Below are positions 34,499 to 37,515 of a stretch of 64,000 bases of DNA, in pieces. The stretch lies in the NCBI RefSeq assembly GCF_001632775.1, contig NZ_CP015249.1, positions 4,134,686 to 4,198,685 on the forward strand. The letters run 5' to 3'. Made by a program: the position numbers and the translations under genes. Below the pieces are notes generated by a model. That model had not been told where the DNA came from. It saw only the letters and a program-made list of their open reading frames with translations, and did no database searches. How positions within the stretch are numbered: the first letter of the stretch is position 1; each line of letters opens with the position of its first letter. This stretch comes from Dokdonella koreensis DS-123 (GTDB taxonomy: Bacteria; Pseudomonadota; Gammaproteobacteria; Xanthomonadales; Rhodanobacteraceae).

Positions 34499-35887
34499 AT
34501 GACCGTCCCGCCCGCGCAGCTTGCGGCGCGTCGGGCGGGACGGCGCCGCTGGTCCCTGGCGGCGCTGGCGCTGCTGGCCGCCTCGCAGGCGCTGCTGTGG
34601 TGGGCGTACTACGCTGGCGGCCCCAAGCAGTTGATCGGCGACGAGGGCGGCTACCTGGCCGCCGCCCAGGCGATCCTGGCCGGCGGCCCCTGGCATGCCA
34701 GCACGATCTGGCCGCCGCTGCAGCCGCTGCTGATCGCCGCGATCACCGCGGTGGCCGGACCGCACCTGCTGGCCGTGCAACTGGTACAGACCGCGCTGCT
34801 GGCCGGCTGCGCGGCGCTGCTGCGCAGCCTGTGGCGGCGCATCGACGGCCGCGTGGCCGCCGCCAATCTCGCCGCGGCGCTGTTCCTGCTCAATCCCGGC
34901 ACGGCCGCCTACGCGCACTGGCTGTGGCCGGAGGTCGTGCACCTGTTCCTGGTGCTGGCCGTGCTGCGCCTGCTGGCGAGCGACGCATTGGTTCCGGCAC
35001 GCGCCGCGCTGGCCGGCGTCTGCACCGGCCTGGCCCTGCTCGCCAAGAGCCTGCTGGCCGCGTTCTGGCCGGTGCTGCTGCTGGCCTTCGTCGGTCGCGG
35101 CCAGGCGCGCGCGCGGCTGCTCGCGATCGCCGCGTTTCTCGCCGGCGCCGGCCTGGTCACCGCACCGGCGCTGCTCCAGGGCTGGCGCGACTACGGCACG
35201 CCGATGATCGCCGACAGCTCGGTCTACAACCTGTGGATCGGGCTGACCGATCGCTGGCGCAGCGACTACGTCGAGGACATGGGCGGCCTCACGCTGCCCG
35301 CGTTCATGGCAGCCGGCGACACGCCGCAGGCGCGCAACGCCGCCACCCGCGAGAAGATCGACGCGCTGGTCGCCGAACGCGGCCTGCTGCGGATCGCGGC
35401 CGACCAGCTCGGCCGCCAGTATTTCCGGCTGTTCAACGCCAAGACGCCGCTGGTCTCGCAGCTGCCGGGGCCGGCCTGCGCCGGTCACCTGGCGGCCTAC
35501 CGCACGGCACCGTGGCTGACCGGCACGCTGACCGCGGCCAATGCGCTGTTCCACACGCTGATCCTCGCCGGCGGCGCCTTCGGCCTGGTCGCGTGGCGGC
35601 GGCGTCCGGACCGGATCGCGCTGCTGCTGGTGCTGTTCGCCGGGTACCAGCTCGCCTTGATGCTGCCGCTGCACGTCAAGGCGCGCTTCCTGTTTCCGCT
35701 GCTGCCGATCGCCTGCGGCCTGGCGGCCAGCTGGCTGGTCTCGCTGGCGCGCCGGCGCGCGGCCGCGGCCGGCGCGGGTCCGATCGCGTTCACGCCGCTG
35801 CGGCTGGCGGCCGGCGCCGTGCTGGCCGCGCTGGTGCTGGCGCTGGCGTGGCTGGGACCGGTGCTGGACCGGACATGCCCGCCGTGA
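34499..35887 (+). CDS. GT39/PMT-like membrane glycosyltransferase
   Basis: 462 residues, about eleven membrane helices. The first periplasmic loop has the acidic pair GDEGGYLAAAQAILAGG, matching the catalytic loop of ArnT/PMT-type GT-C enzymes, followed by WPPLQPLL. GT-C enzymes use polyprenyl-phosphate sugars on the periplasmic side. It likely modifies lipid A, a glycan or a protein. The gene follows the lipoprotein directly and ends 94 bp before the first structured repeat copy. Confidence 0.82.
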   Translation: MTVPPAQLAARRAGRRRWSLAALALLAASQALLWWAYYAGGPKQLIGDEGGYLAAAQAILAGGPWHASTIWPPLQPLLIAAITAVAGPHLLAVQLVQTALLAGCAALLRSLWRRIDGRVAAANLAAALFLLNPGTAAYAHWLWPEVVHLFLVLAVLRLLASDALVPARAALAGVCTGLALLAKSLLAAFWPVLLLAFVGRGQARARLLAIAAFLAGAGLVTAPALLQGWRDYGTPMIADSSVYNLWIGLTDRWRSDYVEDMGGLTLPAFMAAGDTPQARNAATREKIDALVAERGLLRIAADQLGRQYFRLFNAKTPLVSQLPGPACAGHLAAYRTAPWLTGTLTAANALFHTLILAGGAFGLVAWRRRPDRIALLLVLFAGYQLALMLPLHVKARFLFPLLPIACGLAASWLVSLARRRAAAAGAGPIAFTPLRLAAGAVLAALVLALAWLGPVLDRTCPP

Positions 35888-35980
35888 TCGTGCTTCTTCG
35901 CTGATCTGCGGGAATCGATCGGCCCGTCGCTCTCCCTCTGGTCGTTGTTGCCGTTGCCGTGCTCTCGCCCTTGCTGTTGG

Positions 35981-36238
35981 CGCCTGAAGCGAGCCGAGCA
36001 TCGCAGGTCGGCCAGGCCGCAGAGCTGCCCCGTGTCTGAGCGAAGCGAGTTGGGGCAGCGTGCCTGGCTGGCCGAGAAGCGCAGGGGACCGGCGCGGCGC
36101 AGCCGCGGCGGCTCGCGCCGGCGACCACGGTTTTGGTTACTTTTGCCAAGACAAAGAATTTCCAGGAGAAATTCTTGTCGTCGCGTAGCGACGGCCCGGA
36201 GGGCGGCCGCCAGGGATGGCGGGCCGCAAAAGTGACCC
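35981..36238 (+). repeat. Structured intergenic element, copy 1
   Basis: Helices that can be paired: 36008-36014 with 36069-36075; 36024-36031 with 36052-36059 (8 bp, 20-nt loop); 36089-36098 with 36102-36111 (loop GCA, one mismatch); 36135-36145 with 36227-36237 (closing helix, 11 bp, one G-T). Inside the last are 36154-36162 with 36168-36176 (loop CAGGA), 36180-36184 with 36188-36192 (loop GTA), 36194-36197 with 36201-36204, and 36207-36212 with 36217-36222 (GNRA-type loop GGGA). Every helix has a counterpart in the inverted second copy, often with different paired bases. The plus strand is arbitrary. Apparent coding frames inside are by-products. It may be an RNA or a mobile hairpin element. 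Confidence 0.85.
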
Positions 36239-36355
36239 GCGCGCGCAGCGTGCGGAAGCCGTTGCTCTGATCTTCTGCTGTGGTTTTCCGATGAGGATCG
36301 CTGGCACAGAGAAAAGCCAGATCAACATCAAGAGCTTTCGTCCGCTGCGCGGCCG

Positions 36356-36612
36356 AGTCCCTTTTGCGGCAGCCATCCCTGGCCGCCGCCCTCCGGGCCA
36401 TCGCTGCGCGATGTCAAAAATGTCTCCCGGACATTTTTTGATGGGCCAAAAGGAACCAAAAGCCCTCTGCCCGGCGCAAGCCGATCCGGCTGCGCCGGAC
36501 CGGTTCCCTGCGCTTCTCGGACGAGGAGGCACGGCGCCCCAACTCGCTTCGCTCAGACACGGGGCGCCTCTGCGGCCTCCTCGCCCTGCGATGCTCGGCT
36601 TGCTTCAGGGCG
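36356..36612 (-). repeat. Structured intergenic element, copy 2 (inverted)
   Basis: Reverse-complement counterpart of the copy at 35981, about 75-80 percent identical by eye. Helices: 36357-36366 with 36447-36456 (closing); 36367-36375 with 36380-36388 (loop TCCC, GGGA on the minus strand); 36399-36404 with 36408-36413; 36416-36424 with 36430-36438; 36481-36490 with 36494-36503; 36522-36530 with 36575-36583; 36533-36540 with 36561-36568 (20-nt loop, same length as copy 1). Loops are nearly the same in both copies while stem bases change in pairs. Simple-sequence arms of GGCTTC/GGCTGT type lie outside it (36613-36665). Confidence 0.85.
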
Positions 36613-36753
36613 AAAAAAGCAAAAGCCACAGCCACAGCAACAGCCGAAGCCGAAGCCAGAGCCGGAGCTGATCCGAAGCCCAAGGATCCTGCAGATGGGC
36701 GAACCCCCTCCCTTTTTCGGTATCCTGCGCGGCCTGACCTCACCGGTTCGCGC

Positions 36754-37515
36754 ATGCGCCAACACGTCATCGAGCTGATCCTGTTCAGCACCTACGCGGA
36801 ACTGCGCGCCGAACGCGCCCGCAACTACCTCGGCATCATCTGGTGGCTGCTGGAGCCGGCGATGATGATGGGCGCGTTCTGGCTGGTCTTCGACGTGATC
36901 CTGAAGACCGGCGGCCCGGACAACCTGGCGTTCCTGCTGACCGGCCTGACGATGTGGCAGTGGATGAAGTCGTGCATCACGCACGGCGGCTACGCGATCT
37001 GGTCCAACCTCGGCCTGATCCGCCAGGCACGCCTGCCGCTGATCGTGTTCCCGCTGGTGCAGATGCTGGCCGACACGGTCAAGTTCTTCTTCATCTTCGC
37101 GCTGCTGGCGGTGATCCTCTGGCTGCTCGGCCATCCGCCGACGGTCGCCTGGCTGGCGCTGCCGGTGATCTTCGTGGCGATCTTCCTGTTCGCCGCCGGC
37201 GGCGGCTTCATCCTGGCGGCGGTGGTACCGTTCGTGCCGGACGTGCGCTTCGTGATCGAGCAGGTGCTGACCGTGGTGATGTTCCTGTCCGGCGTGGTGT
37301 TCGCGCTGACCAACATGCCCGAGAAGGTGCATGCGGTCATGCAGTGGAATCCGGTGGCCGGCCTGGTCGACGCCACCCGCGGCGTGGTGATGTACGGACG
37401 CTGGCCCGACTGGGGCGCGCTGGCCAAGGTGGCCGGCGTCTCCGCCGCCGTCTGCGCGCTCGGCATCACGATGATCGTGCGCCTGACGCCGCGCTATCCG
37501 AAGCTGGCGGCCTGA
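36754..37515 (+). CDS. wzm: ABC-2 type polysaccharide export permease
   Basis: 253 residues with six membrane helices, the size of Wzm/KpsM permeases. The N-terminal ELRAERARNYLGIIWWLLEPAM block is typical of O-antigen and teichoic-acid exporters, as is the amphipathic start. It should form the channel that moves an undecaprenyl-linked glycan across the inner membrane, with the adjoining ATPase. It is the first gene of the plus-strand operon, 2 bp before the ATPase gene. A possible -10 TATCCT lies near 36720; no clear -35 box. Confidence 0.92.
   Translation: MRQHVIELILFSTYAELRAERARNYLGIIWWLLEPAMMMGAFWLVFDVILKTGGPDNLAFLLTGLTMWQWMKSCITHGGYAIWSNLGLIRQARLPLIVFPLVQMLADTVKFFFIFALLAVILWLLGHPPTVAWLALPVIFVAIFLFAAGGGFILAAVVPFVPDVRFVIEQVLTVVMFLSGVVFALTNMPEKVHAVMQWNPVAGLVDATRGVVMYGRWPDWGALAKVAGVSAAVCALGITMIVRLTPRYPKLAA

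Follow-up and report, generated by a model that had tools for sequence, protein, structure and literature searches.

A dispersed, non-coding inverted doublet with paired stem changes and a one-strand wobble bias in Dokdonella koreensis DS-123 and other proteobacteria

What kind of element keeps its loops and linkers while the stems around them change in pairs? This question is raised by positions 35981-36612 of the window, by which we mean the whole 64,000-nucleotide stretch of Dokdonella koreensis DS-123 DNA that was analysed. The element is intergenic and non-coding and consists of two inverted arms, A and B, which contain an inverted repeat of 238 nt (82% complementary; 35983-36220 versus 36372-36609, with 151 nt between the two halves). 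To its left a gene with a weak Glyco_transf_22 match, under that profile's cut-off, ends at 35887, and to its right an ABC-2 transporter gene starts at 36754. A 63-base degenerate motif derived from arm copies, with up to three mismatches allowed, matched only the two arms in the window and gave no match in 100 shuffles. The parts of the element are the following.

35944-35980, plus strand: left outer 6-bp-periodic array (GTTGCC/GTTGCT/TTGCTG type), adjoining the 5' end of arm A; such arrays lie at the outer ends of many DS-123 arms
35981-36255, plus strand: arm A (core 35981-36238 and hairpin P5), matched by model R1 at 130.3 bits in locus L001
35994-36007, plus strand: arm A linker 1, CCGAGCATCGCAGG, in partial pairing with linker 2 through covarying pairs
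36006-36073, plus strand: arm A hairpin P2, with internal loop CGNAGA/GT and a 20-nt apical loop at 36032-36051
36072-36086, plus strand: arm A linker 2, CCGAGAAGCGCAGGG
36089-36111, plus strand: arm A hairpin P3 (GCA loop)
36135-36237, plus strand: arm A closing helix P4 (36135-36145 with 36227-36237) around module M; short arms keep P4 and lack M
36154-36225, plus strand: arm A module M, with hairpins 36154-36176 (CAGGA loop), 36179-36193, 36194-36204 (GGA) and 36205-36225 (AGGGA)
36237-36255, plus strand: arm A hairpin P5
36256-36341, no strand: spacer between the 3' ends of the arms
36342-36612, minus strand: arm B (core 36356-36612 and P5 at 36342-36352), matched by model R1 at 146.4 bits in locus L001
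36585-36598, minus strand: arm B linker 1
36519-36586, minus strand: arm B hairpin P2, apical loop 36541-36560
36506-36520, minus strand: arm B linker 2
36481-36503, minus strand: arm B hairpin P3, missing from a number of other B arms
36356-36457, minus strand: arm B closing helix P4 (36447-36457 with 36356-36366)
36369-36438, minus strand: arm B module M, with hairpins 36416-36438 (CGGGA), 36399-36413, 36388-36398 (GGA) and 36369-36386 (AGGGA)
36613-36684, no strand: right outer 6-bp-periodic array, (AGCNNN)n on the plus strand, at 36618-36644 and 36642-36684 with period 6

A sequence-only reading had placed two arms here and described the changes between their stems as paired. Indeed, every stem and loop that it quoted was found in the sequence. 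The stems GCTGCCCC/GGGGCAGC of arm A correspond to GGCGCCCC/GGGGCGCC of arm B around a common loop, GTGTCTGAGCGAAGCGAGTT (36032-36051 in arm A; 36541-36560, minus strand, in arm B), and AAGAATTTC-CAGGA-GAAATTCTT at 36154-36176 corresponds to AAAAATGTC-CGGGA-GACATTTTT at 36416-36438 on the minus strand. One arm has the stem CGTCGC/GCGACG where the other has CATCGC/GCGATG, the closing helix reads GGTTACTTTTG/CAAAAGTGACC against GGTTCCTTTTG/CAAAAGGGACT with G-T among its pairs, and a GGGA loop is present in both arms. The arms reach beyond the limits noted earlier, through hairpin P5 to 36255, and the 6-bp arrays lie outside. These outer (AGCNNN)n arrays (35944-35980 and 36613-36684) vary in composition by locus, and similar ones occur in other genera.

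Which fold do the arms share? From 50 non-redundant arms, 26 of them aligned without Stenotrophomonas, we derived a structure in which P1 (GCGA/TCGC) closes a three-way junction. The consensus linker 1, CCGAGCAYCGCAGG, pairs in part with linker 2, CCGAGRAGCGCAGGG, and P2 is built of an outer stem, the asymmetric internal loop CGNAGA/GT, an inner stem and the loop GTYTGAGCGNAGCGAGTT. On the 3' side of P2 follow P3 and then P4, with or without M, and in the window's A and B arms P5 as well. In the 50-arm set the constancy of linkers and loop is by construction, because the search pattern that gathered the set fixed them. Free of that bias are the DS-123 copies found by blast and 33 arms from other orders found by the covariance model; among these 33 the P2 loop followed the exact pattern in 22 and lay within three differences of one form in 25. 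Compared with dinucleotide shuffles, the arms fold with z scores of -4.66 and -4.67 as RNA, and arm A with -4.73 as DNA. The whole doublet of the window reaches z -22 against 20 shuffles. The folding strand cannot be read from one fold, since the opposite strand of arm A also gives z -4.45. The RNAalifold structure of a first alignment, A1, mispaired the inner P2 stem, and a hand structure was tested instead.

The alignment used for this structure, A2, comprises 26 of the 50 arms. The others could not be aligned without gaps and were kept out, namely 16 Stenotrophomonas rows, one from Silvimonas, two DS-123 B arms lacking P3 and five oddly flanked rows. In A2, 95.8% of cells are paired and 19 of 37 pairs show change on both sides. 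Double-change cells number 125, where 500 shuffles average 33.1 (sd 5.1) and slid versions of the structure give 6-19. In 32 distinct arms from other orders, 92.4% of cells are paired and 33 of 37 pairs have changed on both sides, with 338 double-change cells against 105.8 (sd 7.8) shuffled and 49-84 slid; this alignment leans to the model structure, because its arms were aligned to the model. The covariation in other orders strengthens the fold. We also applied an R-scape-like, tree-based null in our own implementation (not R-scape itself) to 134 distinct arms, Stenotrophomonas included, drawn from 175 pattern matches of which eight could not be parsed. Seven of 18 pair columns, the linker pair among them, reached p<=0.01 per column, uncorrected for the number of columns. 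Of the remaining 11, four are invariant on one side and thus uninformative and seven lie above 0.01; columns o6 and i6, which are the same pair in some arms, are not among the seven at p<=0.01. The shape of the arm is thus under selection while its stem letters change. This bears out the earlier proposal of a selected fold, either a structured RNA or a DNA hairpin element, with covariation above the shuffled, slid and tree-based controls.

Paired changes could also arise by mutation. Template-switch events occur at long near-perfect palindromes, and switching at such quasi-palindromes would copy one side of a stem onto its partner, producing paired changes with no selection on the fold; it is the one rival considered here that disputes the fold itself. 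One Stenotrophomonas site (L238) has been reduced to a perfect palindrome whose arms measure about 35 bp. However, template switching predicts no excess of G-T over A-C, and among the events inferred to have started from Watson-Crick pairs in the 134 arms we counted 42 G-T against 15 A-C, beside 54 other mismatches and 42 double changes (a cruder alignment, not relied on, gave G-T 99, A-C 11 and other 177). Nor does it predict covariation in short linker helices, yet the linker pair is TA in 97 and CG in 33 of the 134 arms, and the short linker helices covary in other orders too, through CG, GC and UA changes. A kept loop amid fast-changing stems is equally unexpected, whereas those 25 of 33 model-found arms have kept the P2 loop in exact or nearly exact form. 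We therefore consider a mutational artefact very unlikely.

The excess of G-T wobbles over A-C mismatches has a further consequence, namely that one strand folds, as RNA or as single-stranded DNA. It points to the strand reading CCGAGC...CGCAGGG, in single-stranded form, and is compatible with RNA and single-stranded DNA alike. Substitutions are skewed as well (C>T to G>A 30:7; A>G to T>C 11:6), and plain deamination is an incomplete account of this because the two biases share direction.

How is the element organised in its genome? Blast found at least 53 matches to arm A in the 4.45-Mb DS-123 genome, at 26 loci or more; these counts are lower bounds, as 40 of 286 first-look candidates were scored. 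With arms labelled A or B by the better blast score, 23 of the 26 loci contain an A arm and a B arm that face inward, with the left arm on the plus strand, the right arm on the minus strand and the 3' ends facing each other (two of the 23 are short fragments); two loci have an A arm only and one a B arm only. The unit is thus an A-B doublet, of about 510-690 bp from arm to arm where neither arm is split or much short of its full length. The identity of full-length A copies to arm A of the window, 93-96%, hints at recent spread or conversion. M, made up of four hairpins inside P4, is absent from nine of 22 aligned A arms, P3 is absent from several B arms, and insertion sequences interrupt four B arms. 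Three B arms (L030:1730-2854; DS-123 loci 1771536, 3113272 and 1241650) carry an IS481-type insertion at one and the same position (TTTTGGCCCG^TCAAAA); in the two arms whose ends were both read, GCCCG stands on either side. Because those two differ in their P3 content, the position may have been targeted repeatedly, or conversion may have acted. At DS-123 locus 582480-583754 a different insertion sequence cuts a B arm within P2.

Beyond this genome the family is patchy. A strict pattern found it in 15 of 299 genomes of the order, DS-123 included, with none for the reversed control. The covariance model that the sequence-only reading had called for was built as R1 and run across the phylum, where it found the family in 13 of 398 genomes, again including DS-123, in 11 of 212 genera and in seven families as labelled in the search database; its copy numbers per genome are lower bounds, with up to seven candidates scored in each. 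Named genomes contributed at least 120 matching stretches, and the 80 listed are mostly from Luteimonas, Stenotrophomonas, Pseudoxanthomonas, Xanthomonas, Lysobacter and other Lysobacteraceae; among these 80, the matches from outside the order are one Silvimonas record and two contigs of a Delta4 endosymbiont metagenome assembly. The nine other Dokdonella genomes yielded short pieces only, as did 19 of the 58 genomes besides G000 and G056; none of these 19 entered the copy count. Since one of them, G058, turned out when read to have a related arm (L044), the pattern and blast counts are minimum values. The earlier statement that such sequences are common in Xanthomonadales therefore stands for the genera just named and fails in extent, since the strict pattern reached only the 15 genomes and the family extends to other orders. 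No match was found in 72,556 plasmid or 50,697 phage records (blastn, E<=0.001).

The doublet arrangement recurs in these genomes. Among close arm pairs, defined as distinct neighbours less than 450 bp apart, 76 of 77 are inverted. Those of non-Stenotrophomonas type are convergent in 44 cases, divergent in three and tandem in none, those of Stenotrophomonas type divergent in 23 and convergent in one, and those of other orders divergent in four, convergent in one and tandem in one. There is thus no universal end anatomy, because Stenotrophomonas doublets are mostly opposite in arm orientation. Longer clusters also occur, such as five arms in mixed orientations in one gap (L299:3112-4250). Of genes enclosed by arms, as an autonomous form might have, we saw one, a KAP-family P-loop NTPase gene with two arms on either side, at L298:3484-5004 in a genome from a different family; three further long gaps between arms also occur.

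Loci are scarce between divergent genes. With composition-based gene calling, the 26 DS-123 loci lie between convergent genes in 18 cases, co-directional genes in seven and divergent genes in none, with one undetermined; in other genomes, where 77 of 123 clusters were scored and 46 were dropped because no gene call was near, the corresponding counts are 21/22/1 for the non-Stenotrophomonas type (n=44) and 16/13/4 for the Stenotrophomonas type (n=33). Such placement would suit a boundary element, a strong hairpin doublet between convergent genes that stops read-through or shields 3' ends from both sides and is kept by selection at each site, and one gap holds another palindrome in 13 strains that do not have the element. 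However, avoidance of promoters accounts for the placement of any selfish repeat, and the arms lack a T-run terminator. Moreover, towards transcripts arriving from outside, non-Stenotrophomonas arms are mostly in the folding sense and Stenotrophomonas arms mostly in reverse. A boundary function seems to us quite improbable.

The same element is present in some Stenotrophomonas genomes and absent from others. At a first gap, seen in 30 loci, nine match the whole element and three match with 70-74 extra bases (M in the two that were read); one is one-armed, one (L238) has the perfect palindrome only, four could not be scored, and 12 have both flanks and no element match between them (three of these with 436-880 bases unread). 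At a second gap, also in 30 loci, 15 match through the arm, one matches with M inserted, 13 have another palindrome and one was unread. Neither gap showed a target duplication or a clean empty site, and since the element-free gap differs (at one locus all 13 that were read have the other palindrome), the pattern is also compatible with replacement or loss. The other palindrome, which fills the gap in the strains without the arm (L334-L346), is of the kind GGGGTCGGATCCCATTCC...GGAATGGGCTCTGACCCC.

Does the element belong to a known family? The sequence-only reading knew of no named family with this fold, and Rfam 15 agreed, with no match at the gathering score in the window and 14 further loci (77605 bases); so strongly conserved a fold, which spans seven families of the phylum and occurs in Luteimonas, Stenotrophomonas and other genera, thus passes no Rfam 15 threshold. 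We also found no recognisable description of it in the open full-text literature. MITEs have terminal inverted repeats and a target-site duplication, and ERIC, RIME and bcr are larger palindromic intergenic repeats. Our element resembles these families in being small, non-coding, dispersed and structured, but here no target duplication was found at the two Stenotrophomonas gaps, the two arms A and B have diverged and other orders of the class are reached.

The element works most like a REPIN. In REPINs and BIMEs, repetitive extragenic palindromes form doublets whose movement has been proposed to depend on RAYT transposases, and the likeness lies in many intergenic copies, a nearly invariably inverted doublet with a spacer, a predicted single-strand fold and occasional longer clusters such as L299. 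In PMC3116915 the REPIN unit is an inverted doublet capable of forming a hairpin, as are 23 of the 26 DS-123 loci, with z -22 for the window's doublet. However, two defining REP features fail. A REP, as described in PMC3733652, is a palindrome of 20-40 bp that leaves GTAG or CGTC unpaired at one of its ends, and by eye no hairpin of the window's arms has such a head; moreover, the present arms run to about 150-260 nt with several helices and conserved linkers, in contrast to single 20-40 bp palindromes. A RAYT gene, according to PMC2817692, is flanked by the same repeats, whereas the two Y1_Tnp matches in the DS-123 genome (1426018-1428470) lie about 12 kb from the nearest arm piece, which ends at 1413674.

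We judge it slightly better than an even call that this dispersed, non-coding repeat is mobile and non-autonomous, its unit being a pair of long inverted arms that fold on one strand, with selection on the shape and not on the stem letters and with recognition of the fold by a factor acting in trans. Each arm folds on one defined strand into the conserved multi-helix shape; the folded single strand, as single-stranded DNA in replication or transposition or as a transcript, would, by analogy with REPINs, be the signal for a trans-acting host factor; and action of this factor would spread copies to gaps downstream of genes. The patchy spread (15 of 299 genomes in the order, 13 of 398 in the phylum) and the gaps with and without the element between Stenotrophomonas genomes argue for mobility, which we infer along with the recognition signal and the enzyme in trans. 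Against it count the lack of a clean empty site with duplication at the two Stenotrophomonas gaps, the distance of about 12 kb to the nearest RAYT candidate and the lack of an RVT_1 (reverse transcriptase) match in the DS-123 genome. Each DNA strand of an inverted doublet also carries only one arm in the folding sense, and the arm orientation in Stenotrophomonas is mostly opposite. As a case of paired, one-strand change within a dispersed repeat, the family is instructive: its unit is defined, it is present or absent at strain level, and its link to CsrA can be tested. It could also account for spurious intergenic reading frames.

The link to CsrA comes from module M. In DS-123 its first hairpin has GGA in the loop in 29 of 29 scorable copies (CGGGA 14, CTGGA 11, CAGGA 2, CGGAA 2) and its last in 30 of 30 (AGGGA 26, ATGGA 4), and the base preceding GGA is variable. 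In 11 Stenotrophomonas copies, found by stem pattern with the loops left free, AGGA occurs in 11 and GGA in 10. The arms, or at least M, may be made as RNA, through read-through or their own transcripts, with GGA hairpins that would bind CsrA/RsmA and bring about titration or anchoring at message 3' ends. The wobble bias fits RNA, GGA-type loops also occur in the L044 arms, and CsrA is encoded in five of five genomes checked. The RsmE loop is ANGGAN and the SELEX site RUACARGGAUGU in PMC7652899; the base before GGA is variable in both M and RsmE loops, and the Stenotrophomonas copy L086 contains ACAGGGATGT, which may be set beside the SELEX site. M stems are longer than the SELEX hairpins described there. 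M is also optional (absent from nine of 22 aligned A arms), its third hairpin has GGA in only 13 of 29 DS-123 copies, and copies within one genome are non-independent. It lies on the arm strand in DS-123, the only orientation sought there, but all 11 Stenotrophomonas copies have it on the opposite strand. Furthermore, no sigma-70-like site was found in 35850-36780, terminator-like sites in the window's gap number one against 1.2 expected, and at several loci, by eye, the terminator of the flanking gene lies between that gene and the element. The GGA loops are thus a lead towards CsrA/RsmA and not proof, and we regard this RNA reading as possible but unlikely. If the element does act as RNA, it would be a new kind of multi-copy regulator. 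Bolder, and distinctly improbable, is an ancient proteobacterial family of strand-specific structured inverted doublets carrying CsrA/RsmA-binding hairpins as cargo, by which a mobile repeat would become a genome-wide, multi-copy ligand of the regulator.

The weak Rfam matches touch the same hairpins. At E<=5 there were eight, the best of them on GGA hairpins, and those on P4 with M were sX7 (RF02226; E 0.0049, 26.9 bits of the 55 for gathering) and RsmW (RF02809; E 0.16, 22.7 of 52 bits), both counting in favour of the CsrA/RsmA reading. Csr/Rsm small RNAs (CsrB, RsmW) and sX7 share with the element a series of hairpins with GGA loops, in M only, but the scores fall far under gathering and here the hairpins are an optional insert in a dispersed repeat known from sequence alone. 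Three of four sX7 matches in 80 relatives lie between what we take to be recA and recX, and no arm linker was seen by eye at these three, so the element is not sX7. The other weak matches (Pseudomonas P4 RNA, IRES, snRNA and snoRNA models) were taken as chance.

In the DS-123 and Stenotrophomonas copies the GGA hairpins always face transcripts that come in from outside; L044 breaks this pattern, and it was dropped as a rule. Another Rhodanobacteraceae genome has GGA hairpins in an M-like series, read on the minus strand (L033:1487-1600), where no arm linkers were visible by eye. The L044 arms, from another family of the order, have by eye the loops AGGGAT, AGGAT and AGGA; at L044:1390-1550 the same linkers are present, but three GGA-loop hairpins sit within P2 and P3.
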